From Afipia massiliensis (GTDB taxonomy: Bacteria; Pseudomonadota; Alphaproteobacteria; Rhizobiales; Xanthobacteraceae), in NCBI RefSeq assembly GCF_014203115.1, contig NZ_JACHIJ010000006.1:62001-126000 (forward strand): 64,000 nucleotides of DNA. Direction: 5' to 3'. Below the pieces are notes generated by a model. The model saw only the letters and a program-made list of their open reading frames with translations, ran no database searches and was not told the origin of the DNA. Shown piece by piece: positions 16,112 to 62,607 of this stretch; position 1 is the first letter of the stretch, and every line of letters begins with the position of its first letter. The position numbers were made by a program, and so were the translations under genes.

Positions 16112-16987
16112 ATGCTGGACTTCGTTCAGCAGTTGGTGAGCGGTATTGCGCTCGGCTGTGTTTATGGCCTGATCGCACTTGGCTTTGTCCTTGTTTACAA
16201 AGCCACCGAGGTCGTCAACTTCGCGCAAGGCGATCTGATGATGCTGGGCGGGTTCTTCGCCTTCACCTTCATCAGTCTGCTTGGCTTCAACTACTGGCTT
16301 GGATTTGTCGCGGCGGTCGGCGCCATGGCGCTGTTCGGCATGCTGGCCGAACGCCTCGTGGTGCGGCCGATCCTCGGCTATCCGCAGTTTTCCATCATCA
16401 TGGCGACCATCGGGCTCGGCTTTTTCCTGCGCTCGGTCGCCGGAATGGTCTGGGGCACCGACGATCTCAAGATCGAAACGCCGTTCAGCCAGGGTGTGCT
16501 GCGGCTGGGGAGCCTGGTGCTGGCCTATGACAAGCTCTCGGTAATTGCCGCGACGATCATCCTCTGCGGCGTCCTGTATCTGTTTTTCAACAAGACCACG
16601 CTCGGCACCGCGATGCGTGCCAGTTCCGAGAACATGCTCGCGGCCTACTACATGGGCATTCCCGTCAAGCGCGTGGTGTCGATCGTCTGGGCGATCAGTG
16701 CCGCCGTCGCGACCTGCGCCGGCGTCCTGCTGGCGCCGATCACCTTCGTCCACTCCAACGTCGGCCTTGTGCTGGGACTGAAGGCATTCCCCGCGGCTGT
16801 GCTGGGTGGATTCGGGTCGATCCCGGGGGCTGTGGTCGGCGGAATCCTGATCGGCGTGATCGAAAGCATGGCCGGCTTTTATCTGCCTCAGGGATGGAAG
16901 GATGTCGCGCCCTACATCGTGCTGCTCGCGGTGCTGCTGCTGAAACCCGAAGGCATCTTCGGGCTTCACACGCGCAAGAAAGTCTGA
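16112..16987 (+). CDS. livH: Liv-type ABC transporter permease LivH
   Basis: A 291-residue inner-membrane permease of the branched-chain amino-acid (HAAT) family. It begins with the typical 'VSGIALGCVYGLIALGFVLV' (about 9-28) and 'VVNFAQGDLMMLGGF' motifs. The later 'GLKAFPAAVLGGFGSIPGA' and 'GGILIGVIES' motifs mark LivH rather than LivM. First gene of livHMGF. Because this operon carries an acyl-CoA synthetase, the substrate may be an organic or fatty acid rather than an amino acid; many such systems in Bradyrhizobium-type genomes are linked to aromatic or acyl-CoA catabolism. Confidence 0.92.
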   Translation: MLDFVQQLVSGIALGCVYGLIALGFVLVYKATEVVNFAQGDLMMLGGFFAFTFISLLGFNYWLGFVAAVGAMALFGMLAERLVVRPILGYPQFSIIMATIGLGFFLRSVAGMVWGTDDLKIETPFSQGVLRLGSLVLAYDKLSVIAATIILCGVLYLFFNKTTLGTAMRASSENMLAAYYMGIPVKRVVSIVWAISAAVATCAGVLLAPITFVHSNVGLVLGLKAFPAAVLGGFGSIPGAVVGGILIGVIESMAGFYLPQGWKDVAPYIVLLAVLLLKPEGIFGLHTRKKV

Positions 16988-16996
16988 GGGGCGCCG

Positions 16997-18148
16997 ATGC
17001 GGTTTCTTTTCAAGACAGATTATAACGACGACATCCGGCTGATCCCGCATAGCGGATACATCTGGTCCTACGGCGCGCTGCTGGTGCTGCTGGTGATCGC
17101 GCCGTTCGTTCTGAGCAGCTATCTCGTCAGCCAGCTTGTCTTCGTCTGCATCTATGCCATCGTCGGCGTCGGGCTGATGATCCTGACAGGATTCACCGGG
17201 CAGGCCTCGCTGGGACACGCGGCGTTCCTTGCCATCGGTGCCTATACCGCCGCCTATCTTCAGCAGATGGGCGTACCCTTCATCGTCTACTTTCTGGCAG
17301 CGGGCGTGCTGACCGGATTGATCGGCGCGATGGTTGGATTTCCGGCGTTGCGGTTGCAGGGCATCTATCTTGTCATCGCCACCATCTCGTTCGCGCTGAT
17401 CGTCGAAGAGATTCTGGCGCGCTGGGAGAGCGTCACGCACGGCAACGACGGCATGCGCGTCCGTGCGATCCAGATGCTCGGCGGCAGCATCACGCGCGAC
17501 AGCCCGACCTTCTATTATATGTGCCTCGGTCTCTTGATCCTGGTCATTGTCGGCACGCTCAACCTGATGCGCTCGCCGACCGGGCGCGCGTTCGTCGCCA
17601 TCCGTGACAGCGAGACGGCGGCCAAGAGCATGGGCATCAACGTCGCGCGCTACAAGGTGAAGTCGTTCGCCCTCAGCGCGGCGATCACCGGCCTCGCGGG
17701 CGTACTCTTTGCCCACAAGATGTCCTTCATCAGCCCGGAGATGTTCACACTCCAGCTATCCATCGAATTTATCATGGTGATCATCATCGGCGGCGTGATC
17801 AGCCTGCACGGCGCGGTACTCGGCGCGATCTTCATCGTCATGGTCGATCCGTTCCTGACCTTCCTGAAAGATGACATTCCGGGTGTAGTTGCGGGTCTTG
17901 CCGCCACGTTCGGCGCCGGCGTCGAGCAGGTGGCCAGCATCAAGAACAACGTCGCGGCGATCGCCTCGGCCAACGGCCTTAAGGGCGCGATCTACGGCCT
18001 GATCATCATGCTGTTCATCCTGTTCGAGCCCTACGGCATCTATGGCCGCTGGCTGAAGATCAAGCTCTTCTTCCAGCTCTTTCCGCTCTACAAGCGCGCG
18101 ACCTTCAAGCGGCAGAAGATCTACGTCAAATCGGAGCGGAACCGATGA
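16997..18148 (+). CDS. livM: Liv-type ABC transporter permease LivM
   Basis: A 383-residue permease, partner of LivH. It shows the conserved 'LTGFTGQASLGHAAFLAIGA' block near residues 56-75 and 'GRAFVAIRDSETAAKSMGIN' near 195-214, the cytoplasmic loop touching the ATPase. About ten hydrophobic segments are present. The C-terminus is basic ('YKRATFKRQKIYVKSERNR'). It starts nine bases after livH and overlaps livG by 4 bases, so it is part of one operon. Confidence 0.92.
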   Translation: MRFLFKTDYNDDIRLIPHSGYIWSYGALLVLLVIAPFVLSSYLVSQLVFVCIYAIVGVGLMILTGFTGQASLGHAAFLAIGAYTAAYLQQMGVPFIVYFLAAGVLTGLIGAMVGFPALRLQGIYLVIATISFALIVEEILARWESVTHGNDGMRVRAIQMLGGSITRDSPTFYYMCLGLLILVIVGTLNLMRSPTGRAFVAIRDSETAAKSMGINVARYKVKSFALSAAITGLAGVLFAHKMSFISPEMFTLQLSIEFIMVIIIGGVISLHGAVLGAIFIVMVDPFLTFLKDDIPGVVAGLAATFGAGVEQVASIKNNVAAIASANGLKGAIYGLIIMLFILFEPYGIYGRWLKIKLFFQLFPLYKRATFKRQKIYVKSERNR

Positions 18149-18903
18149 GCTGTTTCCGCGCCGAAAATCTCTCGCTTCATTTTGGCGGGCTGAAAGCGGT
18201 GGATTCCGTCAGCTTCGCGGTGGAGAAGGGTGAAATCCTTTCGATCATCGGTCCCAACGGGGCCGGCAAAAGCTCGATCTTCAACCTGATCTCGCGCCTC
18301 TATGAGCCGACTTCTGGCCGTCTCTATTTCGAGGATCAGGACATTACCGAGGAGCCCGCTTACGGTATCGCCAAGCTGGGCATCGCGCGCACCTTCCAGA
18401 ACATCGAACTGTTCGAAAATGCCACCGTTCTCAGCAACCTTCTGGTCGGGCGGCACCGGCACTCCACCACCACCCTCTGGCAGGAGTTGCTATTCCTGCC
18501 GAACGTCCGCCGCGACGAAAAAGCGCATCGCCGCCGCGTCGAGCAGGTCATTGATTTCCTTGACCTTGCCGCCCATCGGGACAAGCTCATCTCCGGATTG
18601 CCCTATGGCGTACGCAAGGTGATCGAGCTGGCCCGCGCACTGTGCACGGAGCCGAAGCTGATCCTGCTCGACGAACCCTCGTCGGGCCTGAATGTGGAGG
18701 AGACCGACGACATGTCGTTCTGGATCCGCGACATGAAGACCGAGCTTGGCATCACCGTGTTGATGGTCGAGCACGACATGACACTGGTCAACCGCGTCTC
18801 CGACCGGGTGATCGCGCTGAACTACGGCAAAGTGCTGGCCATGGGCACGCCGGCCGAAGTGCAGGCGCATCCCGATGTCGTCGCAGCCTATCTCGGCACA
18901 TGA
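18145..18903 (+). CDS. livG: Liv-type ABC transporter ATPase LivG
   Basis: A 252-residue ATPase. Walker A is 'GPNGAGKSS' (about 38-46), followed by the LivG-specific 'GIARTFQNIELFENATVLSN'. The signature segment reads 'LPYGVRKVIELARALC': the LSGGQ position is LPYGV, a variant common in LivG proteins of aromatic-acid and fatty-acid clusters. Walker B is 'LILLDEPSSGLN' and the H-loop 'VEHDM' is present. It overlaps livM by 4 bases and is followed 10 bases later by livF. Confidence 0.9.
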   Translation: MSCFRAENLSLHFGGLKAVDSVSFAVEKGEILSIIGPNGAGKSSIFNLISRLYEPTSGRLYFEDQDITEEPAYGIAKLGIARTFQNIELFENATVLSNLLVGRHRHSTTTLWQELLFLPNVRRDEKAHRRRVEQVIDFLDLAAHRDKLISGLPYGVRKVIELARALCTEPKLILLDEPSSGLNVEETDDMSFWIRDMKTELGITVLMVEHDMTLVNRVSDRVIALNYGKVLAMGTPAEVQAHPDVVAAYLGT

Positions 18904-18913
18904 GGACGATGTC

Positions 18914-19693
18914 ATGAGCAGTCCCGACATCATTCTCAAGCTGAGCAACATCGAAAGTTTTTACGGGCCGATCATGGCGATCCGCGGCATCAGCCTCGAG
19001 GTGCCGCGCGGCAAGATCGTCACGTTGCTGGGCGCCAACGGCGCGGGCAAGACCACCGTGCTCAAGACGATTTCCGGCATTCTCGATCCGCAGAAAGGCT
19101 CCATCGAATTCAAGGGGCAGCCGATTCAGCGCATGGAGGCCGACAAGATCGTGCGGCTAGGCCTCAGTCATGTGCCCGAAGGCCGCGAGGTGTTCCCGTT
19201 CCTCAGCGTGCGTGAAAACCTGATGATGGGAGCATATCCGCGCAAGGATCACGACGGTGTCGCCGCCGATCTGGAGCGCGTCTACGGCTATTTTCCGCGC
19301 CTGCGCGAGCGCATCAACCAGCCTGCGGGGCAGCTTTCCGGCGGCGAACAGCAGATGCTGGCGATCGGCCGCGCGCTGATGAACCGCCCGGCACTGCTGC
19401 TGCTGGACGAGCCGTCACTCGGGCTGTCGCCTATTCTGGTGAAGGAAATTTTCACCATCATCAAGCGCGTCAACGCGGAGCAGGGCATGTCGATCCTGCT
19501 GGTCGAGCAGAACGCGAAGGTGGCGCTGGAGACCGCGGATTACGGATACGTGCTGGAAATCGGCCGTGTGGTGATGAACGACACCTGCGAGCGCCTGATG
19601 ATGTCGCAGGATATTCAGGAGTTCTACCTCGGCGCCAAGGAAGACGGCGCGCGGGGCGAGCGGCGCTGGAAGAAGAAAAAGACCTGGCGGTAA
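18914..19693 (+). CDS. livF: Liv-type ABC transporter ATPase LivF
   Basis: A 259-residue ATPase. ATG 18914 follows the livG stop by 10 bases with a GAGGA site; an upstream in-frame ATG at 18875 would overlap livG. Walker A 'GANGAGKTT', signature 'LSGGEQQMLAIGRALM', Walker B 'LLLLDEPSLGLS' and H-loop replacement 'VEQNA' (normal for LivF) are visible. After the usual 'EFYLGAKED' end there is a basic tail, 'RGERRWKKKKTWR'. The 141 bases after it hold no gene but contain loosely repeated GACCTGGCG-like pieces and lead to the synthetase gene. Confidence 0.9.
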   Translation: MSSPDIILKLSNIESFYGPIMAIRGISLEVPRGKIVTLLGANGAGKTTVLKTISGILDPQKGSIEFKGQPIQRMEADKIVRLGLSHVPEGREVFPFLSVRENLMMGAYPRKDHDGVAADLERVYGYFPRLRERINQPAGQLSGGEQQMLAIGRALMNRPALLLLDEPSLGLSPILVKEIFTIIKRVNAEQGMSILLVEQNAKVALETADYGYVLEIGRVVMNDTCERLMMSQDIQEFYLGAKEDGARGERRWKKKKTWR

Positions 19694-19834
19694 GTAGCCG
19701 GCGATAAAAACAAGAACCTGGCGATAAGCCGGGCAACACAAGCAGGAGAAAAAGACCGGCGTTTCAAGCCGCGCGAGAGGAACGACATGAGGCCGCGTAG
19801 CCGCTGCGCGGATACGGCGGAAAGGGAGCGAGAA

Positions 19835-21673
19835 ATGGCGAGACCCGCAGTGATCACCGTCGCGGACACGATCGCGAAGAGCTTTCTGCTCGCGGTTGAA
19901 ACGCGCGGCGACAAGGCAGCGATCCGGGAAAAGCATCTCGGCGTCTGGCAGTCGACAAGCTGGCGTGAATGGCTCCAGACCGCAAGAGAGATCGCTTATG
20001 CGCTTCATGCGGTCAGCTTTAAGCCGGGCGACGTCGCTTCCATTGTCTCGAATGCGACGCCGCAATGGGTGTTCGCCGATATGGGCGTGCTCTGCGCGGG
20101 CGGCGTCTCGTCGGGCATCTACCCGACGGACTCGGCGACCCAGGTCGAATATCTCATCAATGACTCGCGGACGCGGGTGATCTTCGCTGAGGACGACGAG
20201 CAGCTCGACAAGGTGCTGTCGTGCCGCGCCCGCTGCCCGACGCTTGAGAAGATCGTCGTATTCGACATGGAGGGCCTCAGCGGCTTCAGCGATCCGATGG
20301 TGATGTCGCTTGACGAATTCATGGCGCTCGGGCGCAACCACATGAACGGCCGCGACGCGCTGTGGGACGAGATGATCGCCAGCCGCGGCACGAACGATCT
20401 GGCCATTCTCGTCTACACCTCGGGAACCACCGGGCCTCCGAAGGGCGCGATGCATTCCAATCGCAGCGTCACCCATCAGATGCGCTACGCCGATTACCTT
20501 CTGGTGCCGACGGATCATGAGGAGCGGCTGGTGTTCCTGCCGCTGTGCCATGTCGCCGAGCGGATCGGCGGCTACTATCTGTCCATCGCCGTTGGCTCCA
20601 TAATGAATTTCGCGGAAAGTCCGGAAACCGTGCCGGACAATCTGCGCGAGGTGCAGCCGACCGCGTTTCTGGCGGTGCCGCGGATCTGGGAGAAATTCTA
20701 CTCTGCCATCACGATTGCCCTGAAGGATGCAACGCCGCTCCAGCAGTGGATGTATCGCCAAGCGCTCGGCGTTGGCCAGCGTCTGACTGAGTACAGACTT
20801 GAGGGGGAAACGCCGCCGCTGTCGTTGCGGCTCGCGGGCAAGGCGGCCTACTGGCTGGTGTTCCGCAACATCCGCCGCATGCTCGGACTCGATCGCGTCC
20901 GCATCGCGTTCACGGGCGCCGCGCCGATCTCGCCCGATCTGATCCGCTGGTATCTCGCCATCGGCCTCGACATGCGCGAGGTCTATGGCCAGACCGAGAA
21001 TTGTGGCGTGGCGACGCTGATGCCGAATGACCGCATCAAGCTCGGCTCGGTCGGAAAGGCGGCGCCTTGGGGCGAAGTCATGATCTGCCCGAAGGGGGAG
21101 ATCCTCGTCAAAGGCGATTACCTGTTCATGGGCTATCTGAACCAGCCCGAAAAGACCGCCGAGACCATCGACGCCAAGGGCTGGCTGCACACCGGCGACG
21201 TCGGCACCATCGACAACGAAGGCTTCGTCAAGATCACCGACCGGATGAAGGACATCATCATCACGTCCGGCGGCAAGAACATCACGCCATCGGAAATCGA
21301 GAACCAGCTCAAGTTCTCGCCCTATATTTCGGACGCGGTGGTGATCGGCGACAAGCGGCCGTTCCTGACATGCCTGGTGATGATCGATCACGAGAACGTC
21401 GAGAAGTTCGCGCAGGACTACAACATTCCCTTCACGAACTATGCGAGCCTGTGCCGCGCGGCTGAAATCCAGGATCTCATCAAGCGCGAGATCGAGGTCG
21501 TTAACCAGAACTTCGCCCGCGTGGAAACCATCAAGAAATTCCACCTGATCGAGCGGCAACTGACGCCCGAAGACGAGGAATTGACACCGACCATGAAGCT
21601 GAAGCGGAGCTTCGTGAACAAATCCTACGCAGCCGAGATCGATGCAATGTACCGGGCGGGCGCCATGGCGTAA
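19835..21673 (+). CDS. Long-chain-type AMP-forming acyl-CoA synthetase
   Basis: A 612-residue member of the ANL family, FadD15-like, which activates a carboxylic acid to its CoA thioester with ATP. ATG 19835 has GGGAG just upstream and gives the usual beginning; the frame is open 16 codons earlier without a site. The phosphate loop 'YTSGTTGPPKGAMH' is near residues 194-207. The A5-like motif is 'EVYGQTENCG', the hinge region 'HTGDVGTIDNEGFVKITDR' and the lid 'KDIIITSGGKNITPSEIEN'. It sits between livF and the binding protein, suggesting that the transported acid is activated on entry. Substrate chain length is not readable. Confidence 0.9.
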   Translation: MARPAVITVADTIAKSFLLAVETRGDKAAIREKHLGVWQSTSWREWLQTAREIAYALHAVSFKPGDVASIVSNATPQWVFADMGVLCAGGVSSGIYPTDSATQVEYLINDSRTRVIFAEDDEQLDKVLSCRARCPTLEKIVVFDMEGLSGFSDPMVMSLDEFMALGRNHMNGRDALWDEMIASRGTNDLAILVYTSGTTGPPKGAMHSNRSVTHQMRYADYLLVPTDHEERLVFLPLCHVAERIGGYYLSIAVGSIMNFAESPETVPDNLREVQPTAFLAVPRIWEKFYSAITIALKDATPLQQWMYRQALGVGQRLTEYRLEGETPPLSLRLAGKAAYWLVFRNIRRMLGLDRVRIAFTGAAPISPDLIRWYLAIGLDMREVYGQTENCGVATLMPNDRIKLGSVGKAAPWGEVMICPKGEILVKGDYLFMGYLNQPEKTAETIDAKGWLHTGDVGTIDNEGFVKITDRMKDIIITSGGKNITPSEIENQLKFSPYISDAVVIGDKRPFLTCLVMIDHENVEKFAQDYNIPFTNYASLCRAAEIQDLIKREIEVVNQNFARVETIKKFHLIERQLTPEDEELTPTMKLKRSFVNKSYAAEIDAMYRAGAMA

Positions 21674-21790: not shown

Positions 21791-22990
21791 ATGTCGAAAT
21801 CGTTCAAGGCGTTTGGCCTTGCGGTGGGTGCGTTCGCGCTGACCCAGTCGCCGGCCTTCGCGCAGACCAAGGTGACCAACGAGGGCATCTCGCCGGCCGA
21901 GATCGTCATCGGCTCGCATCAGGATCTTTCGGGCCCCATCAAGGTCTGGGGCGTGCCGGTGTCCAACGGCATGAAGATGGCGGCCGATGAGATCAATGCC
22001 GCCGGCGGCATCAACGGGCGCAAGATCAAGCTGATCATCGAAGACAGCGGTTACGATCCGAAGCGCTCGGTGCTGGCCTCCCAGAAGCTGATCGAGAAGG
22101 ACAAGATCTTCGCCATGGTCGGCCCGATGGGCTCGCCGACGGTGCTTGCCGCGCAGGACATCCTGTTCGACGCGGGCGTGCTGCAGCTCTTCCCGCTGAC
22201 GGCGGCGGAGTTCACCTTCAAGTTCGATCCGGCGAAGCCGCAGGAGAGATTGAAGTTCAACAACATCCTGCCCTATGTCGAAAGCACGCGGGCGGCGGTG
22301 AAATACATGATCGAGACCAAGAAGTTCACCAAGCCCTGCATCATGCATCAGGACGACGAGTACGGCAAAAGTGTGCTCGATGGCTTCACCCAGCAGGCCA
22401 CTGCGATGAAGCTGACGCCGGCCTCGGTCACGAGCTACAAGCGTGGCGCATCCGATTTCAGCGCGCAGGTCGCCAAGATGAAATCCGACGGCTGCGATCT
22501 TGTTGTGCTCGGAACGGTGATCCGCGAAACTATCGGCGCGATGGGCGAAGCCAAGAAGCTCGGCTGGGATGTGACGTTCCTCGGCGCGACGCCCACCAAC
22601 GTGCTCGAAGTGCCCGCGCTCGGCAAGGATATGGTTGAAGGGCTCTATGCGGCGTCCGGGTTCGAAATTCCCTATGAGGACACCGCAAAGGGCAAGGTGA
22701 AGGACTGGCTTGTGAACTACAAAAAGGCGTTTGGTTCCGACGCCAATACGCAGGCGATCATCGGTTACAACGCGATGATGACCTTCGCCTACTACGCCAA
22801 CAAGGCAGGCAAGGATCTGACCGGCGCCAAGATGCTGGCTTCGCTCGAGTCCGGTGACGTGTTCCAGGATATATTTAGTTCGCCGCCGACCAAATTCTCG
22901 AAAACGAACCACCTTGCCACCACGGTGACGCAGGTTCAGCAGGTCAAGAGCGGCCGCTGGGTTCTGGTGAAGGATGGCCTGATGTTCTGA
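21791..22990 (+). CDS. Liv-type ABC transporter substrate-binding protein
   Basis: A 399-residue periplasmic binding protein of the LivJ/LivK class (Peripla_BP_6). A signal peptide ends around residue 25 (SPAFA, then QTK). 'GISPAEIVIGSHQDLSGPI' opens the first lobe, with 'GMKMAADEINAAGGINGRKI' following, both hallmarks of the family. GAGGAG precedes the ATG. It is the last gene of the liv operon and is closed by a strong terminator. The family binds amino acids, aromatic acids or other small acids; the ligand here is unknown, but the neighbouring synthetase points to a carboxylic acid. Confidence 0.92.
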   Translation: MSKSFKAFGLAVGAFALTQSPAFAQTKVTNEGISPAEIVIGSHQDLSGPIKVWGVPVSNGMKMAADEINAAGGINGRKIKLIIEDSGYDPKRSVLASQKLIEKDKIFAMVGPMGSPTVLAAQDILFDAGVLQLFPLTAAEFTFKFDPAKPQERLKFNNILPYVESTRAAVKYMIETKKFTKPCIMHQDDEYGKSVLDGFTQQATAMKLTPASVTSYKRGASDFSAQVAKMKSDGCDLVVLGTVIRETIGAMGEAKKLGWDVTFLGATPTNVLEVPALGKDMVEGLYAASGFEIPYEDTAKGKVKDWLVNYKKAFGSDANTQAIIGYNAMMTFAYYANKAGKDLTGAKMLASLESGDVFQDIFSSPPTKFSKTNHLATTVTQVQQVKSGRWVLVKDGLMF

Positions 22991-23009: not shown

Positions 23010-23047
23010 ATCGCGTGTGCGGGTTGCCCGCGCACGCGATTTTCTTT
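23010..23047 (+). terminator. Rho-independent terminator of the liv operon
   Basis: A 14-base stem, ATCGCGTGTGCGGG against CCCGCGCACGCGAT with one G-T pair, and a TTG loop is followed by TTTCTTT. It lies 20 bases after the binding-protein stop and separates this operon from the kinase gene at 23083. Confidence 0.9.
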
Positions 23048-23082: not shown

Positions 23083-24072
23083 ATGAGCATTGAAAGTCCG
23101 GTCAAGGCCAGCATCGCGCGCTGGTTTCCTGGAGCCACGGGTATCGATCGCCTGGCTCAGTTGTCCGGTGGCGCCAGCCAGGAAACCTGGTCGTTCGACG
23201 TCCTGCATCCATCCGGAAACATCGCCGTCATTCTGCGCCGCGCTCCGTCAGGCTATGGCGCTGCGCCGGGCCGTGCCGCTGGCCTCGAGGCCGAAGCGGT
23301 TCTGATGCAGCAGGCGTATGAAGCGGGGATACCGTCGCCGCGTGTGCGTTATGTTTTGCGCGCAGAAGACCAGCTTGGCAGCGGCTTCATCATGGACCGC
23401 GTCGACGGCGAGACCATCCCGCGCAAGATTCTGCGCGATGCTCAGTTCGCGCAGGCGCGCAATGTGCTGGCCAGCCAGCTCGGCAAGGTGATGGCCGAGA
23501 TTCATGCACTTGACAAATCCCGGCTTCCAAAACTGCGGCTGATGACGGTCGCAGGCGAGATCGACGATCTCACAACAGAATACAAATCATTCGACTGGCC
23601 GCGTCCGGTGTTCGATCTGGCCCTGCGGTGGCTGCGCGACAACGCGCCCGCGCCGTCGGATGCCGTGATGCTGGTTCACGGCGATTTCCGCCACGGCAAT
23701 CTCATTATCGGCCCCGAAGGTGTCCGCGCGGTGCTCGACTGGGAACTGGCGCATCTCGGTGACCCGATGGAAGATCTCGGCTGGATTTGCGTGAACTCGT
23801 GGCGGTTCGGCGAGATCGACAAGCCGGTCGGCGGTCTCGGCACGCGCGAGGATCTGTTCGCCGCGTATGAGGCGGCGTCAGGCCGCCCGGTGAATGTGCG
23901 GCGCGTCATGTTCTGGGAAACGCTCGGCACCTTGCGGTGGGGCATCATGTGTTGCGGCATGATGCAGCGGTTTCGCGCCGGTCCGGATCATTCGATGGAA
24001 CGCGCCATGATCGGCCGCCGCGCCTCGGAAACCGAAATCGATCTGTTGCGGCTGCTGGCGCCGCGCGCATGA
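23083..24072 (+). CDS. APH-family kinase, LvaA / ACAD10-11 kinase-domain-like
   Basis: A 329-residue phosphotransferase with the aminoglycoside-phosphotransferase/choline-kinase fold. The N-terminal loop 'QLSGGASQETWSFDV' (about 24-38) matches the acyl-CoA-linked subgroup. The catalytic loop is 'LVHGDFRHGNLI' (about 197-208) and the metal site 'LDWELAHLGDPMEDLGW' follows. ATG 23083 lies after the terminator; an earlier in-frame start would overlap it. Proteins of this subgroup include LvaA of Pseudomonas putida, which phosphorylates 4-hydroxyvaleryl-CoA, and the N-terminal domain of human ACAD10/11. It is followed by a DUF6285 gene and, after one reverse gene, an acyl-CoA dehydrogenase, the same set as lvaABC. 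The acyl-CoA substrate is inferred. An inverted repeat overlaps its stop. Confidence 0.82.
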   Translation: MSIESPVKASIARWFPGATGIDRLAQLSGGASQETWSFDVLHPSGNIAVILRRAPSGYGAAPGRAAGLEAEAVLMQQAYEAGIPSPRVRYVLRAEDQLGSGFIMDRVDGETIPRKILRDAQFAQARNVLASQLGKVMAEIHALDKSRLPKLRLMTVAGEIDDLTTEYKSFDWPRPVFDLALRWLRDNAPAPSDAVMLVHGDFRHGNLIIGPEGVRAVLDWELAHLGDPMEDLGWICVNSWRFGEIDKPVGGLGTREDLFAAYEAASGRPVNVRRVMFWETLGTLRWGIMCCGMMQRFRAGPDHSMERAMIGRRASETEIDLLRLLAPRA

Positions 24073-24113
24073 TGCCGAAAAGTGCGAAGCGGTTTTCGGA
24101 TAACATCATGCGC
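24065..24113. repeat. Inverted repeat overlapping the kinase stop codon
   Basis: The arms are GCGCATGATG-CCGAAAA and TTTTCGG-(ATAA)-CATCATGCGC around an 11-base loop. The first arm includes the TGA of the kinase gene. The core GAAAAGTG...AAGCGGTTTTCGG is a sequence I recognise as frequent between genes in Rhizobiales. The hairpin would sit between the kinase and DUF6285 genes on the mRNA. Confidence 0.75.
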
Positions 24114-24149
24114 AATGGAGCATGACGCCGATGACAAAGGACATGTGAA

Positions 24150-24521
24150 ATGCAGGATCAACCGACGCCGGTCGAACTGATCAACGCGGTCGCGGAGTTT
24201 CTTCGCGCAGATGTCGCGCCGCAATTGTCCGGCCACGCCGCATTCAAGCTGCGCGTGGGGCTCAACGCGCTCGATCTGGTCGTGCGACAGCTTACGCATG
24301 AAGCATCCGGCGATGCCGCCGAGGCCGAGCGGCTATCAAAGCTGCTCGGCGCGTCGGGCTCGCTGGAAGACCTCAACCGGCTGCTGTCAGCGCGTATCGC
24401 GAGCGGCGAGATGGGCTTCCAGACGCCGGGACTTACCGAACACGTCTGGCAGACCACGATGGACAAGCTGGCCATCGACCAGCCGAACTATGCGTCCTAT
24501 CGCCGCGAGCGCGATACTTAG
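24150..24521 (+). CDS. DUF6285 protein, LvaB-like partner of the kinase
   Basis: A 123-residue, all-helical soluble protein without cysteines or signal peptide. It opens with 'PTPVELINAVAEFLRADVAP' and continues with 'FKLRVGLNALDLVVRQL', which I recognise as the DUF6285 pattern; these genes commonly follow APH-family kinases of the acyl-CoA type. In P. putida the comparably small LvaB is needed for LvaA activity, so a similar helper role is likely. That LvaB itself belongs to this family is from memory and should be checked. The gene ends at 24521, directly abutting the reverse-strand crotonase stop at 24522. Confidence 0.75.
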   Translation: MQDQPTPVELINAVAEFLRADVAPQLSGHAAFKLRVGLNALDLVVRQLTHEASGDAAEAERLSKLLGASGSLEDLNRLLSARIASGEMGFQTPGLTEHVWQTTMDKLAIDQPNYASYRRERDT

Positions 24522-25301
24522 CTATCTGCCCTTCCACTGCGGCGGGCGTTTTTCCGCGAACGCCTTGGGACCTTCGATGTAATCCTCGGACGCGGCCAGC
24601 GCCTTGACGGCCGGATAGTCGAACTGTTCCGCCAGCGCCTGCTCCAGCGACACGCCGAGGCCGCGATGCATGGCCTGCTTCGAGGCGCGGATCGACATCG
24701 GGCCGTTCTGCAAAATGAGATTCGCCCAGCGCTCCGCACCCGCCAAAGCTTCGCCCTTCGGCACGACTTCGTTGACAAAGCCAAGTTCAAGTCCCTCGCG
24801 CGCGGGAACGTGGCGTCCGGTGAGGATCATGCCCATGGCGCGCTTGAGGCCGATCAGGCGCGGAAGGCGGTGCAACCCGCCGGCGAGCGCGGCGAGGCCG
24901 ACACGCGGTTCCGGCAGTGCGAAGGTGGCGTTTTCTGCTGCGATGATGAGGTCGCACGCCAGCGCAATTTCGAAACCGCCGCCCATGGCGACGCCGTTGA
25001 CGGCGGCGATGATCGGCTTGTCGCAATCGAAGCGGTGGGTCAGTCCGGCGAAGCCGCTGGTATCCCAGCCGCGCTGGCCGCCCTGGGCCTGCCATTTCAG
25101 GTCGTTGCCAGCGGAAAACGCCCGGTCACCTGCGCCCGTCACGATCGCGATCCATTGATCCGGATCCTTGTTGAACTCGTCGAAAACGCGATGCATTTCA
25201 AAGTGCATCGGGGAATGCACGGCGTTCATCACGTCGGGACGATTGAGTGTGACGATGGTGAGCGGACCTTTGCGGTCCACCTTGGCGAATTCATAGGCCA
25301 T
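24522..25301 (-). CDS. Enoyl-CoA hydratase (crotonase family)
   Basis: A 259-residue crotonase. ATG 25301 has AAGGAAA upstream and yields the normal beginning MAYEFAKVD; an earlier in-frame start at 25331 lacks a site. The oxyanion-hole segment is 'DRAFSAGNDLKWQ'. Both acid/base glutamates of true hydratases are present: in 'GGGFEIALACD' and in 'FALPEPRVGLAALAGG'. It therefore probably hydrates an enoyl-CoA. It is embedded in reverse orientation between the DUF6285 gene and the dehydrogenase, and is divergent from the latter across a 199-base gap. In an Lva-type route a hydratase would follow phosphate elimination. Confidence 0.9.
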   Translation of the reverse strand: MAYEFAKVDRKGPLTIVTLNRPDVMNAVHSPMHFEMHRVFDEFNKDPDQWIAIVTGAGDRAFSAGNDLKWQAQGGQRGWDTSGFAGLTHRFDCDKPIIAAVNGVAMGGGFEIALACDLIIAAENATFALPEPRVGLAALAGGLHRLPRLIGLKRAMGMILTGRHVPAREGLELGFVNEVVPKGEALAGAERWANLILQNGPMSIRASKQAMHRGLGVSLEQALAEQFDYPAVKALAASEDYIEGPKAFAEKRPPQWKGR

Positions 25302-25350
25302 GAGCGATTTCCTTACGCTGCGTTGCAACACTTGAGCGATGTTGTCGTGC

Positions 25351-25392
25351 CTTAATTAGACAGCAAAGAAGCCGCTTCACAAATTAATTAAG
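25351..25392. promoter_or_regulatory. AT-rich inverted repeat in a divergent promoter region
   Basis: Arms CTTAATTA (25351-25358) and TAATTAAG (25385-25392) lie 26 bases apart, in the otherwise gene-free 25302-25500 gap between the divergent crotonase and dehydrogenase genes. Such spaced arms could bind the AraC regulator encoded at 26855 or form promoter elements. No clear -35/-10 pair can be assigned. Confidence 0.4.
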
Positions 25393-25500
25393 CGCTTGAC
25401 TAACGCCCTCAGCCTTATCTTAATTCCCACCCATCGTCGGCTCTCGCGAGCACCGTGGCGAAAACAAAAAACCAAGTCCGGGGATGCTGGGAGTCGCGCG

Positions 25501-26796
25501 TTGGATTTTTCGCTGCCTGACGATTTGACCGCCTATTTGTCCGAGCTCGATCGTTTCATCGATCAGAAAATCAAGCCGCTCGAGCAGCGCGACGACAACA
25601 TCCGTTTCTTCGATCATCGCCGCGAGTGGGCGCGGACGGATTTCGACAAGGGCGGCCTTCCTCGCCACGAATGGGAAGACCTGCTGCGTCAGGCGAAAAA
25701 TCTTGCCGATGAAGCCGGGCATCTGCGGTTTGCTATTCCTTCGCGCTACGGCGGCAAGGACGGTTCGAATCTCTGGATGGCGGTGATCCGCGAGCATTTC
25801 GCCGCCAAGGGTCTTGGCCTGCACAACGATTTGCAGAACGAACATTCGATCGTCGGGAACTTTCCGCTCGTTACCATGCTGGATCGCTATGGCCGCGACG
25901 ACCAGAAGGCGATGATCGAAGGTTCCCTTACCGGAAAATACCGCATTACTTTCGGTCTCACCGAACCCGACCATGGGTCAGACGCCACCCACATGGAAAC
26001 GCGCGCTGTTCAGGCCACGCGTGATGGCGTCAGCGGGTGGGTCATCAACGGCGAGAAGATGTGGACGACCGGCATGCATGTCGCCACCCACTGCGCGACG
26101 TTCGTGCGGACATCGGGCAACGACGGCGATGCGCGGGGCATCACATGTTTTCTCGTGCCGGCAAACGCCAAGGGCGTGAAGGTCGAGGAATATCTGTGGA
26201 CCTTCAACATGCCGACCGATCATCCACGTGTCAGCTTCACGGATGTGTTCGTGCCGGACGATGCGCTGTTCGGCGAGGTCGGGCGCGGGCTGTCGCTGGC
26301 GCAATGCTTCGTGCATGAGAACCGGATTCGTCAGGCTGCCAGTTCGCTTGGGGCGGCCGTCTATTGCATCAACGAGAGCGTGCATTACGCGCGCGAGCGC
26401 AAGCCGTTCGGTCACGCGCTGGCCGAGAACCAGGCGATCCAGTGGCCGCTGGTGGAACTTGCGACCCAGGCCGAGATGCTGCGGCTCCTGATCCGCAAGA
26501 CGGCGTGGGAAATGGACCGCATGACCCAGCCTGAGGTCGAGCAGCGGCTCTCCGACAAGGTGTCGATGTGCAATTTCTGGGCGAATCGGCTGTGCTGCGA
26601 AGCGGCGGACCGCGCGATGCAGGTGCACGGCGGCATGGGCTACTCGCGGCACAAGCCGTTCGAGCACATCTACCGCCATCACCGGCGCTATCGCATCACC
26701 GAGGGCAGCGAGGAAATCCAGAAGCGCAAGGTCGCTGGATTCCTGTTCGGCTACATGGGTGCGGGAAAATTAGAGACGACGGAGAAGAGCCGCTAA
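25501..26796 (+). CDS. Acyl-CoA dehydrogenase, LvaC / ACAD11-like candidate
   Basis: A 431-residue flavoprotein of the acyl-CoA dehydrogenase family. I chose TTG 25501 because GGGAG lies seven bases upstream and the protein then begins MDFSLPDDL as homologues do; the frame is open to 25396 without family-like sequence. The flavin-binding motif is 'FGLTEPDHGSDATHMETRA' and the second substrate motif is 'INGEKMWTTGMH'. The C-terminal 'YRITEGSEEIQKRKVAGF' has Glu at the MCAD-type catalytic base position. The TEP..GSDAT pattern resembles ACAD10/11. With the kinase and DUF6285 genes it completes an LvaABC-like set, in which LvaC removes phosphate from 4-phosphoacyl-CoA. An ordinary dehydrogenase remains possible. 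Confidence 0.82.
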   Translation: MDFSLPDDLTAYLSELDRFIDQKIKPLEQRDDNIRFFDHRREWARTDFDKGGLPRHEWEDLLRQAKNLADEAGHLRFAIPSRYGGKDGSNLWMAVIREHFAAKGLGLHNDLQNEHSIVGNFPLVTMLDRYGRDDQKAMIEGSLTGKYRITFGLTEPDHGSDATHMETRAVQATRDGVSGWVINGEKMWTTGMHVATHCATFVRTSGNDGDARGITCFLVPANAKGVKVEEYLWTFNMPTDHPRVSFTDVFVPDDALFGEVGRGLSLAQCFVHENRIRQAASSLGAAVYCINESVHYARERKPFGHALAENQAIQWPLVELATQAEMLRLLIRKTAWEMDRMTQPEVEQRLSDKVSMCNFWANRLCCEAADRAMQVHGGMGYSRHKPFEHIYRHHRRYRITEGSEEIQKRKVAGFLFGYMGAGKLETTEKSR

Positions 26797-26854
26797 TTCA
26801 GGTTTCACAAGAGGCGAACAATCGTCCGTGGAAAAAATGTTTCTGGAGGAAACG

Positions 26855-27670
26855 ATGCGCAGGTGTACGTCTGGCCGGTCCGACCGGTTCATGCTGATCA
26901 GTTCGGAGCGGGTGTTTTACGCCGGGCTGCACGGCAAGCCATCAGTGCGCACGCTCGGCGCGCTCGCGGTCTGTGTGCCCTTGCATGGGACAGCGCGTCT
27001 CGAAATCGAGGGACAGCCGCCGCGCGTTAGCGAAATCCTCGCCGTTCCCGCCTACCTGCCGCACAAGATCACGTCGGAGTCCCGCGAAATTCTCGGACTT
27101 CTGATCGAGCCCGAGTCGGTCTGCGATGAAGATCTCGCGGAGATCCTTCGCCAATGCGACGATCCGGCGGCGGCGAGCCATCTCGCGGCCCGGTTTCGCG
27201 AGATCTATGCGACCATGGCGCTGAGCGGCACGAGCGGTTTCACGTCGGCCGATTTCGACCAGATATTTCTCCAGCGCCGCCTGAAGCAGCGGGAACTGGA
27301 TACGCGCATATCGACCGTCGTGTCGCGTTTTCAGGCCAAGCCGTCGAGCAGTATTTCGGGTGACGATTGCGCCAGCGGCGTCAAGCTGTCGCTGTCGCGC
27401 TTCCTGCATCTGTTCAAGGACGAGACCAGCATGAACTTCAAGACTTTCCGCGCCTGGAAGCGCGCGCGGAATATCCTGCATCACGTCAATGTCGAGCGAA
27501 ATCTCGCGCATTTCGCGCTCGATGCCGGCTATCCGGACTCGACGCATTTCAGCCACTCGCTGCGCCGTATTTACGGGCTGCAGCCGAGTGCGCTGTTTTC
27601 CGGCTCGCGGCGCCTGCAGATCATCAACGGCAGGGATGTTGCGAGCGACGCAACGGGAATGCGGGCTTAA
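26855..27670 (+). CDS. AraC-family transcriptional regulator
   Basis: A 271-residue regulator. ATG 26855 has GGAGGA at 26845-26850; a GTG at 26828 is a weaker alternative. The N-terminal part is a cupin-like sensor ('RTLGALAVCVPLHGTARLEI', then 'SEILAVPAYLPHKI'). The C-terminal double helix-turn-helix includes 'NFKTFRAWKRARNILHHV' and 'LAHFALDAGYPDSTHFSHSL', followed by RRIYGLQPS. It lies 58 bases after the dehydrogenase in the same direction and is the only regulator near the Lva-like module, so it is the likely local controller. It converges on the GST gene with a 4-base overlap of the two stop codons. Confidence 0.9.
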   Translation: MRRCTSGRSDRFMLISSERVFYAGLHGKPSVRTLGALAVCVPLHGTARLEIEGQPPRVSEILAVPAYLPHKITSESREILGLLIEPESVCDEDLAEILRQCDDPAAASHLAARFREIYATMALSGTSGFTSADFDQIFLQRRLKQRELDTRISTVVSRFQAKPSSSISGDDCASGVKLSLSRFLHLFKDETSMNFKTFRAWKRARNILHHVNVERNLAHFALDAGYPDSTHFSHSLRRIYGLQPSALFSGSRRLQIINGRDVASDATGMRA

Positions 27671-30736: not shown

Positions 30737-30918
30737 TGCGATCCTCCTTGGCAGGAGATTTATGGCCCGTTTGTGGGGTCAAGACTTGCGTTAAGCCGCC
30801 AAGTCTTCTGAAATTGTGCTTCCGGAAATTGTGGCAAGCCCAGCTAGTTTTCACAAGACGCTGGCGGTCCCGTCCTCCTACCGTTCGGAGCAATTCGCGA
30901 TGAACCTGAGGGCCCAAA
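30737..30918. promoter_or_regulatory. Divergent promoter region, dehydrogenase unit and BKACE-carboxylase operon
   Basis: A gene-free 182-base stretch between two units pointing away from each other. The sequence GAAATTGTG occurs twice 16 bases apart (near 30810 and 30826). No convincing palindrome or sigma-70 promoter could be assigned. A GAGGG ribosome site precedes the ATG at 30919. Confidence 0.4.
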
Positions 30919-31782
30919 ATGGATAAAGCCGTCGTCACCTGCGCGCTCAACGGCGTCCTGACCAATCCCAAGCAGCACCATGTCCCGGTGACCCCGGAGG
31001 AAATGGCGCGGGAGGCCAAGGCCGCGTTCAACGCGGGCGCGTCGGTGATGCACATGCATCTGCGCCAGCAGGAACCCGACAAGGGGCATATGCCGTCGTG
31101 GGACGTGAACCTGTCGAAGGAAGTCCAGCAGGCGATCCGCGAGGCGTGCCCCGGCGTCATCATCAATCACACCACGGGCGTCAGCGGACCGAACTATCAG
31201 GGCGCGCTCGATTGTGTGCGCGAGACCAAGCCGGAAATGGCCGCCTGCAATGCCGGTTCGCTGAACTACCTGAAGGTCAAAGCCGATGGCTCCTGGGCCT
31301 GGCCGCCGCATGTGTTCGACAACGCGCCGGACAAGATCCAGAAATATCTCGACGTGATGAAGGTGGCGAAGTCGCTCCCGGAATTCGAATGTTTCGACGT
31401 CGGCATCGTGCGCAGCGTGGCGATGTACAAACAGAACGGGATGTATTCCGGGCCGCTCGAATACAATTTCGTCATGGGCGTCGCGTCGGGCATGCCCGCC
31501 GATCCCGATCTGCTGCCGATTTTGCTCAAGCTGAAACTGCCGGACGCCAACTGGAGCGTCACCGCGATTGGCCGCGAGGAGATCTGGCCGCTGCATCTGC
31601 GCTGCGCCGAGCTCGGCGGTCATCTGCGTACTGGCCTCGAAGATACGTTCTATCTCGGGGACGGCACCAAGGTGACCTCGAACGGACAGTTGATCGAAGG
31701 CATCGTCGCCTGCGCGCGCAAGGCCGGACGCGAGATTGCCTCGCCTGACGAAGCGCGGAAGATTCTCAAGCTGATGCACTAA
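30919..31782 (+). CDS. Beta-keto acid cleavage enzyme (BKACE, DUF849)
   Basis: A 287-residue TIM-barrel enzyme of the BKACE family. These zinc enzymes cleave a beta-keto acid with acetyl-CoA, giving acetoacetate and a new CoA ester; the founding member, Kce, acts on 3-keto-5-aminohexanoate. The metal motif His45-x-His47 is present in 'AGASVMHMHLRQ'. Other hallmarks include 'GVIINHTTGVSG', 'ECFDVGIVRSVAMY' and 'LRTGLEDTFYLGDG'. Length is normal. It opens an operon with an acyl-CoA ligase, a biotin-dependent carboxylase and a crotonase. The real substrate cannot be inferred; lysine fermentation is unlikely here as other lysine genes are absent. A second, broken BKACE lies at 37853. Confidence 0.9.
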   Translation: MDKAVVTCALNGVLTNPKQHHVPVTPEEMAREAKAAFNAGASVMHMHLRQQEPDKGHMPSWDVNLSKEVQQAIREACPGVIINHTTGVSGPNYQGALDCVRETKPEMAACNAGSLNYLKVKADGSWAWPPHVFDNAPDKIQKYLDVMKVAKSLPEFECFDVGIVRSVAMYKQNGMYSGPLEYNFVMGVASGMPADPDLLPILLKLKLPDANWSVTAIGREEIWPLHLRCAELGGHLRTGLEDTFYLGDGTKVTSNGQLIEGIVACARKAGREIASPDEARKILKLMH

Positions 31783-31832: not shown

Positions 31833-33437
31833 ATGAGCGATCTGACTGCAACGGGCGGCGTGCCTGGTCCCGGACGTATCGGGCGCGTGGCTGTCGGCGA
31901 TATCCTGCGTCGTGCCGCCTGCCGATTCCCGAACCGCATCGCGCTGACCGATGGCGCGCGGCAGGTCACGTTCACCGAGATCGAGCACGACGCCAATCGC
32001 TTCGCCAACTATCTGGTGGCGCGCGGGCTCAAGCCCGGCGAGAAGATCTCGACCATCTGCAACAACTCGGTCGAATTCGTCAAAGCGTTGTTCGGCATTC
32101 ACCGCGCGGGGCTGGTCTGGGTGCCGATCAACACCATGCTCGGCCCGGCGGACATGGATTATATCCTCGACCATGCCGGGGTTCGTTTCGCCCTGATCGA
32201 CGACAACCTTCACGCGCAGCCGGACCGGTGCGCCGCGTTGGAAAAGCGCGGCGTCGATCTGATCGCGATTGACCTCGCCGGCCACGCCCGGGAGCAGGGG
32301 CTCGAGAATTTCAACGACCTGATCAAGGGACAGTCCATTATCGAGCCCGAGATCGCGTTCGACGACCGCGATCTGGCGATGATCATCTACACGTCGGGTA
32401 CGACGTCCCGGCCGAAAGGCGCGATGCACTGCCATCTTGCAGTGGTGATGGCGGCGATGAGCAACGTCATCGAAATGCATCTCGACCGCAACGACGGCAT
32501 CACCGGCCAGTTTCCGCTATTCCATTGCGCCGCTCATGTCCTGCTGCTGACGTACCTCTCGGTCGGCGGCAAACTCGCCATCATGCGCGGCTTCGATCCG
32601 GTGGCCTGCATGGAGGCGATCCAGCGCGACAAGCTGACGGTGTTCATCGGATTGCCGGCGATGTATCAGGCGATCCTCGATCATCCGCGCCGCAAGGAAT
32701 TCGATCTCACCAGCCTGCGCACCTGCGTCTACACCATGGCGCCGATGCCAAGGCCGTTGCTGGAGCGCTGCATTGCGGAGCTTTGCCCGACATTCGTTCA
32801 GCCGAGCGGGCAGACGGAAATGTATCCGGCGACGACGATGTCGCAGCCGGATCGCCAACTCGCGCGCTTCGGCAACTACTGGGGCGAGTCGATGATCGTC
32901 AACGAGACCGCGATCATGGACGACGAGGGAAATCTGCTGCCGCCCGGACAGATCGGTGAAATCGTGCACCGCGGGCCGAACGTCATGATGGGCTATTACA
33001 AGGACCCGGACGCCACCGCGGCGGCGCGCAAGTTCGGCTGGCATCACACCGGCGATCTGGCCCTGATCGATGAGCACGGCGAGGTGCTGTTCATCGACCG
33101 CAAGAAGGACATGATCAAGTCCGGTGGCGAGAACGTCGCCTCGGTCAAGATCGAGGAAACGCTGCTGGCGCATCCGGCAGTGCTGAACGCCGCAGTCGTC
33201 GGCCTGCCGCATCCGCAGTGGGGTGAGGCGGTGTCGGCCTTCGTCAAGCTGAAGCCCGGCGCACAGACCGGCGAGGCCGATATCATCGAGCATTGCCGCA
33301 AGTCGCTCGGCGGATTCCAGATCCCCAAGCTGGTGCGAATTCTCGACGAGATGCCGATGACCGCGACCGGCAAGCTGCGCAAGGTCGAACTGCGCCAGAA
33401 GTTCGTCGATCATTTCAACGCGACCACGGCGGCGTGA
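31833..33437 (+). CDS. AMP-forming acyl-CoA synthetase/ligase
   Basis: A 534-residue ANL-family ligase. The phosphate loop is 'IIYTSGTTSRPKGAMH' (about 184-199). The substrate region includes 'QFPLFHCAAHVLLLTYLSVG', where the His may line the pocket. The hinge and lid are 'HHTGDLALIDEHGEVLFIDR' and 'KKDMIKSGGENVASVKIEE', and the C-terminal catalytic lysine sits in 'MTATGKLRKVELR'. It belongs to the short/medium-chain and aromatic acid ligase group rather than long-chain FadD. It lies between BKACE and the carboxylase beta gene, so it likely generates the CoA ester entering this route. Its stop nearly overlaps a possible GTG start of the next gene. Confidence 0.9.
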   Translation: MSDLTATGGVPGPGRIGRVAVGDILRRAACRFPNRIALTDGARQVTFTEIEHDANRFANYLVARGLKPGEKISTICNNSVEFVKALFGIHRAGLVWVPINTMLGPADMDYILDHAGVRFALIDDNLHAQPDRCAALEKRGVDLIAIDLAGHAREQGLENFNDLIKGQSIIEPEIAFDDRDLAMIIYTSGTTSRPKGAMHCHLAVVMAAMSNVIEMHLDRNDGITGQFPLFHCAAHVLLLTYLSVGGKLAIMRGFDPVACMEAIQRDKLTVFIGLPAMYQAILDHPRRKEFDLTSLRTCVYTMAPMPRPLLERCIAELCPTFVQPSGQTEMYPATTMSQPDRQLARFGNYWGESMIVNETAIMDDEGNLLPPGQIGEIVHRGPNVMMGYYKDPDATAAARKFGWHHTGDLALIDEHGEVLFIDRKKDMIKSGGENVASVKIEETLLAHPAVLNAAVVGLPHPQWGEAVSAFVKLKPGAQTGEADIIEHCRKSLGGFQIPKLVRILDEMPMTATGKLRKVELRQKFVDHFNATTAA

Positions 33438-33451
33438 AAGCAAAACCATCC

Positions 33452-61713: not shown

Positions 61714-62607
61714 TCAGATCCGCTCGATGTCTTTGGTGCCGAACAGGCCGTAAGGCTTGATCATGAGGATGATGATGAGCGCGTAGAACGGCGCGATCTC
61801 GAACAGGTTGCCCCAGTGGAGATATTCGCTGTCGACAAAGTGCGCGACGTTCTCAAGCAGCCCGATGATGATGCCGCCGACCACCGCGCCGCCGACACTG
61901 TCGAGGCCGCCGAGGATCGCCGCCGGGAACACCTTGATGCCGTAAGCCGAGAGGCCCGCCGAAACGCCGTTGACCACGGCGACGACGACACCGGCGACGG
62001 CCGAGACGGTCGCGGAAATCGCCCATGCCATCGCGAACACGCTCTTCACCGAAATGCCGAGCGACTGCGCGACCTGCTGGTTGAACGCAGTGGCGCGCAT
62101 GGCGAGGCCATACTTCGACACCTTGAAGAACCACGCCATGCCCGCCATCATCGCCACCGACACCGCGAGGCTGAGGATGTAGACGGTCTGCACCTGCATC
62201 CCGAAAATATTGACGAGCTGGGTGTTGAAGATTTTCGGGAACGGCTGGAGGTTGACGCCGAACATCCATTTCATCAGCGCCGAGAACACCGTGGACAGCG
62301 CGATCGTCACCATGATGACGGAAATGATCGGCTCGCCGATCATCGGGCGCAGGATGATGAGCTGGATCAGGATGCCGAAGATGAACATGAAGACGAGCGT
62401 GATCGGCATGCCGATCCAGAACGGCACCTGATATTTGGTGAGCAGGAACCAGCACACCCACGCGCCGATCAGCAGCAATTCGCCCTGCGCGAAGTTGACC
62501 ACCTGCGTCGCCTTGTAGATCAGCACGAAGGACATCGCGACGACGCCGTAGAGCGTGCCGACCACGAGGCCGTTGATGAGAAGTTGAACGAGAAGCTGGG
62601 TGTTCAC
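61714..62607 (-). CDS. livH: Liv-type ABC transporter permease LivH (second system)
   Basis: A 297-residue permease with the usual 'LINGLVVGTLYGVVAMSFVL' beginning and 'QVVNFAQGELLLIGAW' motif; the later 'YGIKVFPAAILGGLDSVGGA' and 'GGIIIGLLENVA' confirm LivH. Its ATG overlaps the stop of the upstream acyl-CoA synthetase gene by 4 bases, so the two are translationally coupled. Confidence 0.92.
   Translation of the reverse strand: MNTQLLVQLLINGLVVGTLYGVVAMSFVLIYKATQVVNFAQGELLLIGAWVCWFLLTKYQVPFWIGMPITLVFMFIFGILIQLIILRPMIGEPIISVIMVTIALSTVFSALMKWMFGVNLQPFPKIFNTQLVNIFGMQVQTVYILSLAVSVAMMAGMAWFFKVSKYGLAMRATAFNQQVAQSLGISVKSVFAMAWAISATVSAVAGVVVAVVNGVSAGLSAYGIKVFPAAILGGLDSVGGAVVGGIIIGLLENVAHFVDSEYLHWGNLFEIAPFYALIIILMIKPYGLFGTKDIERI

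Follow-up and report, generated by a model that had tools for sequence, protein, structure and literature searches.

The entry of 4-hydroxy acids into β-oxidation through kinase-coupled dehydrogenases was shown only recently, as outlined in PMC11342911 and PMC12440821, and a dehydrogenase mechanism starting with removal of the C2 proton is discussed in the former. Known systems for comparison are LvaA-LvaB-LvaC of the Pseudomonas lva operon and the mammalian kinase-dehydrogenase fusions ACAD10 and ACAD11. As summarized in PMC12440821, R626, H634, R637, and the catalytic D753 of mouse ACAD11 are tied to phosphate handling, and the dehydrogenase activity of ACAD10/11 suffered most when R626, H634, or R637 was replaced non-conservatively. 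Priming of an alcohol for dehydration by a kinase is also known for steroids, according to the abstract of PMC8449060, and thus the principle itself is not new.

We analyzed a stretch of 64,000 nucleotides from Afipia massiliensis (NZ_JACHIJ010000006.1, positions 62,001 to 126,000; hereafter, the window), in which genes for an APH-fold kinase, a DUF6285 protein, and an acyl-coenzyme A (CoA) dehydrogenase, here termed ACAD-A, lie close together. A first-pass annotation, made from the nucleotide sequence, had interpreted them as an LvaABC-like module. Our comparisons made us lean slightly towards another account, namely a parallel kinase-coupled acyl-CoA dehydrogenase system that is not an LvaABC module and whose dehydrogenase would process the product of the kinase. 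The genes concerned are as follows.

23083–24072, plus strand: APH-fold kinase (PF01636, 111 bits, scanned from an upstream GTG at 23017), in the ACAD-A-partner clade of the LvaA superclade
24150–24521, plus strand: DUF6285 protein of 123 residues, LvaB family (PF19802, 104 bits against a cut-off of 28.1)
24522–25331, minus strand: enoyl-CoA hydratase (crotonase; ECH_1, 206 bits)
25501–26796, plus strand: ACAD-A, a Glu-type acyl-CoA dehydrogenase with a TTG start (PF00441, 144 bits)

The kinase with its two motifs (LVHGDFRHGN and LDWELAHLGDP) and the 123-residue DUF6285 protein were found as first annotated. The crotonase said to lie between them and the dehydrogenase is also present, but its gene lies on the opposite strand and is transcribed towards the DUF6285 gene and away from the ACAD-A gene; the kinase, DUF6285, and dehydrogenase genes therefore do not form one operon with it. 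In three relatives (L098, L100, and L103), the start annotated by NCBI aligns with the TTG at 25501. PF19802 gave a single match, the window protein, in the whole 5.3 Mb genome. When 20 loci of the same family were read, the kinase, DUF6285, and ACAD-A genes occurred together in 17 and a hydratase gene stood beside DUF6285 in 15. The former count, together with the co-occurrence of ACAD-A and DUF6285 over the phylum described below, indicates that the three-gene grouping is more than chance.

The dehydrogenase is where the locus departs from the known systems. At the positions of R626, H634, R637, and D753 of mouse ACAD11, the window ACAD-A has F, Q, S, and E. Among 109 distinct ACAD-A sequences, R626 is replaced by F and H634 by Q in all 109, R637 by S, G, or A in 104, 4, and 1, respectively, and D753 by Glu in 109 of 109, whereas R, H, R, and D stand at the same four positions in 35 of 35 LvaC-type rows. 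In 38 rows of ordinary acyl-CoA dehydrogenases, Arg at R626 and His at H634 were never found, Arg at R637 was found once, and the base position held Asp in one row and Glu in four. Other residues link ACAD-A with the LvaC type: the His next to flavin adenine dinucleotide (FAD) at H597 of ACAD11 (109/109 ACAD-A, 34/35 LvaC-type, and 0/38 ordinary rows) and an Arg three residues before the base (109, 35, and 7 of 38). ACAD-A further has invariant polar residues of its own, including H393, H394, R277, and Q278, which are absent from the ordinary rows. Some contrasts of the first comparison were built in, as the groups had been labelled by motif (RYRITEG or HCMR); the second, in which 182 sequences were relabelled by profile score (109, 35, and 38), gave the same result. 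The 109 ACAD-A sequences, 99 of which had no part in the profile, scored with margins of at least 465 bits, and identical sequences were counted once. On these alignments, the R626/H634/R637/D753 test separates ACAD-A systems from LvaABC at once. With the Arg/His/Arg clamp and the Asp base lacking, the phosphate probably occupies a position other than C4 or is bound in another kind of pocket, and ACAD-A probably catalyzes a reaction other than the plain 4-hydroxyacyl-CoA reaction.

Phylogenetic analysis placed ACAD-A and the LvaC type as sister groups, with support of 95/87 in a tree of 44 rows. In a tree of 62 rows, to which CarC and two other solved enzymes had been added, ACAD-A was monophyletic (100/100), the LvaC/ACAD10/11 side received 100/99, and the two together received 98/96; its 41 ordinary rows comprised 15 paralogs from the window's genome, and the others were mostly from Pseudomonadota. 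Deep branches that unite long stems may arise artefactually, and the sister relation of ACAD-A to LvaC/ACAD10/11 is therefore likely rather than certain. By sequence comparison, ACAD-A is a widespread family of its own, neither LvaC-type nor ordinary. The identification of the window dehydrogenase as LvaC is ruled out by the tree, by comparison with the lva-operon enzyme (27% identity, 115 bits), and by the four replaced residues, and its assignment to the ordinary enzymes by clade is ruled out by the tree (98/96). It had been considered at the outset that the dehydrogenase might group with ordinary acyl-CoA dehydrogenases; it is indeed not LvaC-type, but it falls in a sister family and not among the ordinary enzymes. 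It shares with the latter the fold domains and the Glu base, which CarC and further MCAD-like enzymes have, but lies outside their part of the tree and has the invariant residues mentioned above.

The genome of A. massiliensis also holds the enzymes that the first-pass annotation had looked for in the window. Its 32 dehydrogenase matches were followed at 30 fetched loci by reading the best-scoring frame of each, one dehydrogenase per locus even where two are neighbours, and at least four LvaC-type enzymes with HCMR and the Asp base were found (L110, L113, which is cut by a contig end, L115, and L117). One LvaC-type enzyme of the genome has 59% identity (489 bits) to the lva-operon dehydrogenase and adjoins a kinase and a ligase. 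It lies at 446.7–449.0 kb of contig C5 (L221, 6257–10330) with no DUF6285 match beside it, and its kinase forms a long branch far from the LvaA clade. On contig C2, a dehydrogenase and a kinase match the PDB chains of ACAD11 with 452 and 267 bits, respectively, and this pair is the counterpart of ACAD10/11. Hence, the ACAD10/11- or LvaC-like dehydrogenase claimed for the window did not hold up against its outside-clade position and the closer enzyme of the same genome, and a split bacterial counterpart of ACAD10/11 does exist, but at another locus. The window kinase as the ortholog of the ACAD10/11 kinase was likewise ruled out, as it scores 53 bits compared with 267 bits for the contig C2 kinase. 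Further differences from ACAD10 and ACAD11 are that the window kinase and dehydrogenase are separate frames, that a DUF6285 protein is added, that the base is Glu and HCMR is missing, and that the kinase falls outside the ACAD10/11 kinase clade; the coupling of a kinase to an acyl-CoA dehydrogenase, the His at H597, and the Arg three before the base are common to both.

The kinase and its small partner are related to LvaA and LvaB, as had been proposed. In a Pseudomonas plasmid record that carries an lva operon, the small protein is named by NCBI 'LvaB, 4-hydroxypentanoyl-CoA kinase subunit' and matches PF19802 with 85 bits (cut-off 28.1). LvaB is thus a DUF6285 protein and the window pair is of the LvaAB kind; in pairwise alignment, the window protein has 29% identity to the named LvaB (E 0.001), and the two kinases have 33% identity. 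The relation to LvaA was borne out by a tree of 52 kinases, in which all 44 DUF6285-partnered kinases formed one clade, the LvaA superclade (99/98), apart from the ACAD10/11-type kinases. Its first sub-clade (33 rows, 95/91) contained 23 of 23 ACAD-A-linked kinases, two of which are identical rows, and its second (11 rows, 85/70) contained eight of eight kinases linked to LvaC-type enzymes. The pairing of kinase and dehydrogenase is therefore clade-matched in this tree, which was built from 49 chosen loci with matches below 60 bits dropped and with a bootstrap that had not fully settled.

The catalytic Asp and Asn (D220 and N225 of ACAD11) are kept in 33/33 and 11/11 rows of the two DUF6285-partnered sub-clades. 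Arg at R176, which makes a CoA contact in the ACAD11 model as described in PMC12440821, is present in 6/6 ACAD10/11-like and 2/2 haloarchaeal kinases, but in 1/33 and 0/11 rows of the DUF6285-partnered sub-clades. We infer that the DUF6285 protein is a kinase subunit that may make up for the lost CoA contacts. Its AlphaFold2 model is all-helical (predicted local distance difference test (pLDDT) 91.9, predicted template modelling score (pTM) 0.71), and the best hit of a Foldseek search with this model among solved structures had an E value of 2.3, with none at or below 0.001. DUF6285 was named in no paper of the literature searched.

A single open frame encodes both kinase and DUF6285 at 12 of 80 loci (the best 80 of 586 confirmed ACAD-A relatives), and such fusions were also found in eight wide loci (L077, L088, L090, L091, L092, L094, L095, and L096); they fall on both sides of the kinase tree. 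The AlphaFold2 model of one Novosphingobium fusion of 460 residues (pLDDT 92, pTM 0.91) has DUF6285 as a helical domain. The natural fusions and this model support a fixed assembly of kinase and subunit but do not prove it. The 25-hydroxy steroid kinase of Sterolibacterium was one of the solved structures nearest in fold to the fusion model (Z 23.5, root mean square deviation 3.8, 312 residues), in an alignment covering essentially the kinase part only. As described in PMC8449060, this enzyme resembles the system proposed here in performing the kinase step of a dehydration dependent on adenosine triphosphate (ATP), but it acts on tertiary C25 steroid alcohols and not on acyl-CoA, and the abstract names no DUF6285 or acyl-CoA dehydrogenase partner. 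At L177 (7044–7743), two DUF6285 matches were seen in adjoining open frames with one kinase beside them.

At the genome level, ACAD-A goes together with DUF6285 and the kinase even where the genes are not neighbours. A pattern scan for ACAD-A in one genome per species (84,980 species) yielded at least 594 stretches, including 586 confirmed relatives, and the best 80 loci were examined. Within 8 kb of ACAD-A, 58 had the kinase, 58 had DUF6285, and 57 had both. Eighteen of the 23 loci without one or both genes nearby were followed into their genomes, five (L147, L152, L196, L203, and L204) being left out for contig edges close to the match. PF19802 was found elsewhere in 17 of the 18 genomes, the exception being Panacagrimonas, and the kinases read beside the matches of this search, 18 in all, each fitted the ACAD-A-partner model best, with a margin of 80–167 bits; one of them, L256, is the same place as training row L088 (identical scores). 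In the same flanks of 8 kb, an LvaC-type dehydrogenase was noticed in 15 of the 80 loci, 13 of them from Bradyrhizobium (e.g., L205, 482–1756), where ACAD-A and the LvaC type may act in one pathway.

In 398 genomes of the phylum, PF19802 was present in 39, ACAD-A in 30, and both in 29 (Fisher 2e-34, ignoring ancestry; 17 of 18 genera). In the 30th ACAD-A genome, G441, the gene adjoining ACAD-A encodes a kinase-DUF6285 fusion unlisted in the Pfam search, so that 30 of 30 ACAD-A genomes carry DUF6285, partly unlinked and in some cases fused to the kinase; the kinase beside DUF6285 was read at the loci examined. A draw of 149 genomes from the family gave ACAD-A in 29, all with PF19802, and PF19802 only in five. 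Ten phylum genomes have PF19802 and lack ACAD-A. Six of them show an HCMR-type neighbour (G156, G164, G193, G318, G494, and G527); G422 and G455 have a kinase in the LvaA clade with no LvaC-type gene near; and G217 and G283, available as short loci, have the end of a dehydrogenase of the DG.SEVH/DG.SEIH type upstream.

By analogy with LvaAB, the APH-fold kinase with its DUF6285 subunit would phosphorylate a hydroxyl group of an acyl-CoA. ACAD-A would then take the phosphorylated acyl-CoA and start with abstraction of the C2 proton by the Glu base next to FAD, and the enoyl-CoA product would pass to the neighbouring hydratase and on to β-oxidation. The order of these steps, the elimination, and the class of substrate are thus proposed from the described systems. 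The replaced residues, and the presence of LvaC-type enzymes at other loci of this genome, suggest that ACAD-A differs from LvaC in its substrate or in where the phosphate sits. A more specific form, which we put forward tentatively and hold as less than an even chance, is an ATP-dependent dehydration of non-C4 hydroxyacyl-CoAs (for example, tertiary, branched, or more remote), with a redox-neutral flavin, a Glu base, and a different phosphate pocket, operating in Pseudomonadota, Actinomycetota, and, with another small protein, haloarchaea. If the parallel system is real, a common function would follow for hundreds of genes now annotated simply as acyl-CoA dehydrogenases, phosphotransferases, or DUF6285 proteins, DUF6285 would become a kinase subunit, and not every cluster of kinase, DUF6285, and dehydrogenase should be called 'LvaABC'. 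A search of the literature by titles and abstract openings yielded no description of the ACAD-A family, which is weak evidence of absence, as most subscription journals were outside the searched collection.

Several observations weigh against a parallel system of this kind. Without R626, H634, and R637, ACAD-A may have no phosphorylated substrate, and in pairwise searches its best match among solved structures was CarC (147 bits; ACAD11, 88 bits), so that it resembles the ordinary enzymes. In G025, of the window's genus, ACAD-A is missing and the kinase, DUF6285, and hydratase are kept at 77–94% identity. ACAD-A is likewise missing from four more genomes of the family in which PF19802 was matched: the match of G027 is below the cut-off (24 bits); in G112, the contig stops at the expected place of ACAD-A; G059, a genome 90% complete, shows no ACAD-A gene next to the pair; and G001 combines a weak match (51 bits) with a kinase truncated at the contig end and lacks ACAD-A. 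Although G284 does carry ACAD-A, its kinase falls on the LvaA side of the tree. In Panacagrimonas perspica (L179, 6913–9302), ACAD-A lies beside an ACAD10/11-type kinase in a genome without a DUF6285 match, possibly a partner swap. Two plasmid records (Halomarina PSR21 and QY30) have ACAD-A and no kinase match within 5 kb. The small haloarchaeal protein described below, finally, aligned with DUF6285 at an hhalign probability of only 8 (P 0.004).

The strongest competing explanation, which we regard as rather unlikely but worth attention, is that ACAD-A is an ordinary α,β-dehydrogenase acting before or after the kinase step; that step would remove a hydroxyl group with another lyase assisting, and ACAD-A would oxidize the acyl-CoA so formed, the electrons passing to electron transfer flavoprotein. 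The Glu base in 109 of 109 sequences and the missing phosphate clamp agree with it, and the neighbouring hydratases and ligases and the thiolase of a Sulfitobacter cluster would fit normal β-oxidation. It does not account for the grouping of ACAD-A with LvaC/ACAD10/11 (98/96) or for a kinase clade that follows the dehydrogenase family. No other lyase was recognized in the 28 neighbour clusters of 50 loci, but this argument is weak, since even ACAD-A escaped the clustering at 18 of these loci.

An LvaABC-type module for 4-hydroxyacyl-CoAs, in which ACAD-A performs the LvaC reaction with other residues, appears improbable. The homology of the kinase and DUF6285 to LvaAB and the sister position of ACAD-A to LvaC speak for it. 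Against these stand the loss of the four diagnostic residues from every one of the 109 sequences, the LvaC-type enzymes elsewhere in the genome, including the 59% identical one with its own kinase and ligase, and the kinases of the two systems, which are unmixed in the tree save for the unclear G284. The window and the lva operon both have an acyl-CoA ligase nearby. In addition to its F/Q/S/E dehydrogenase, the window differs from the lva operon in the sub-clade of its kinase and the opposite strand of its hydratase, and the 24 window frames that were profile-scanned between 13.9 and 38.2 kb contain no PrpR-type regulator (LvaR), short-chain dehydrogenase/reductase (SDR; LvaD), or acetate symporter. 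An unrelated role of the kinase, such as inactivation of a toxic acid or drug, with genes that are neighbours through history only, is very improbable: APH-fold kinases include many antibiotic kinases and the window kinase weakly matches macrolide and aminoglycoside kinase models, but these matches are far below the cut-offs (best 34.6 bits against 650) and the co-occurrence persists where the genes are unlinked.

The surroundings annotated in the first pass (a Liv transporter, an acyl-CoA ligase, an AraC gene, and a biotin-carboxylase cluster) were confirmed by profile matches, and the families in the scanned frames were the Liv transporter, ligases, hydratases, AraC, GST, carboxylase, and a beta-keto acid cleavage enzyme (BKACE).

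16112–19693, plus strand: Liv-type ABC transporter permeases and ATPases (PF02653 twice, ABC_tran twice)
19787–21673, plus strand: acyl-CoA ligase (AMP-binding, 205 bits)
21791–22990, plus strand: Liv-type solute-binding protein (Peripla_BP_6, 205 bits)
26828–27670, plus strand: AraC-type regulator (HTH_18, 42 bits)
30919–31782, plus strand: BKACE (289 bits)
33293–37062, strand n/a: biotin-carboxylase cluster (profile scan)

The Liv transporter, two ligases, hydratases, biotin carboxylase, and BKACE suggest the breakdown of an imported, perhaps branched acid. The order of the Liv permease and ATPase genes is kept in two further genomes of the genus; among the 20 family loci, the Liv-ligase-AraC surroundings were found only in two of the same genus, and hence we name no substrate. 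Opposite BKACE, a long frame at 30844–31779 on the minus strand without a family match is a shadow frame.

Clusters in other organisms varied around the same genes. Sulfitobacter has the order ligase-kinase-DUF6285-ACAD-A-hydratases-thiolase-TRAP transporter, and Nocardia has DUF6285-kinase-ACAD-A. Four haloarchaeal plasmids (Halomarina BCD28, two Natrinema, and Haloterrigena) encode ACAD-A, a kinase, and a protein of 157–159 residues without an assigned family (L100, 4343–7233; L103, 6001–8822; L225, 5001–7830; L226, 5001–7820). Two haloarchaeal kinases included in the kinase tree branch outside the DUF6285 clade. Three of the four triads adjoin hydantoinase/oxoprolinase genes, the BCD28 cluster also holds Liv permeases, and a fifth plasmid is that of Halomarina PSR21. 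The neighbour clusters of the 50 loci comprised ligases, hydratases, Liv binding proteins, an SDR, and others, some of the longest-frame picks being artefacts, and no pathway-specific gene was recognized among them. A histidine phosphatase gene directly follows kinase-DUF6285 in a Stutzerimonas plasmid (L104, 4937–8278) and in Thermus pTT27 (L099, 7028–8998). According to PMC6692424, the lva locus of P. citronellolis LA18 has a phosphatase-family gene in place of lvaB, and a DUF6285 gene may have been overlooked there. In the window, the segment between the hydratase and ACAD-A genes (25332–25500) contains AT-rich, TTAATTA-like repeats that may serve as an operator.

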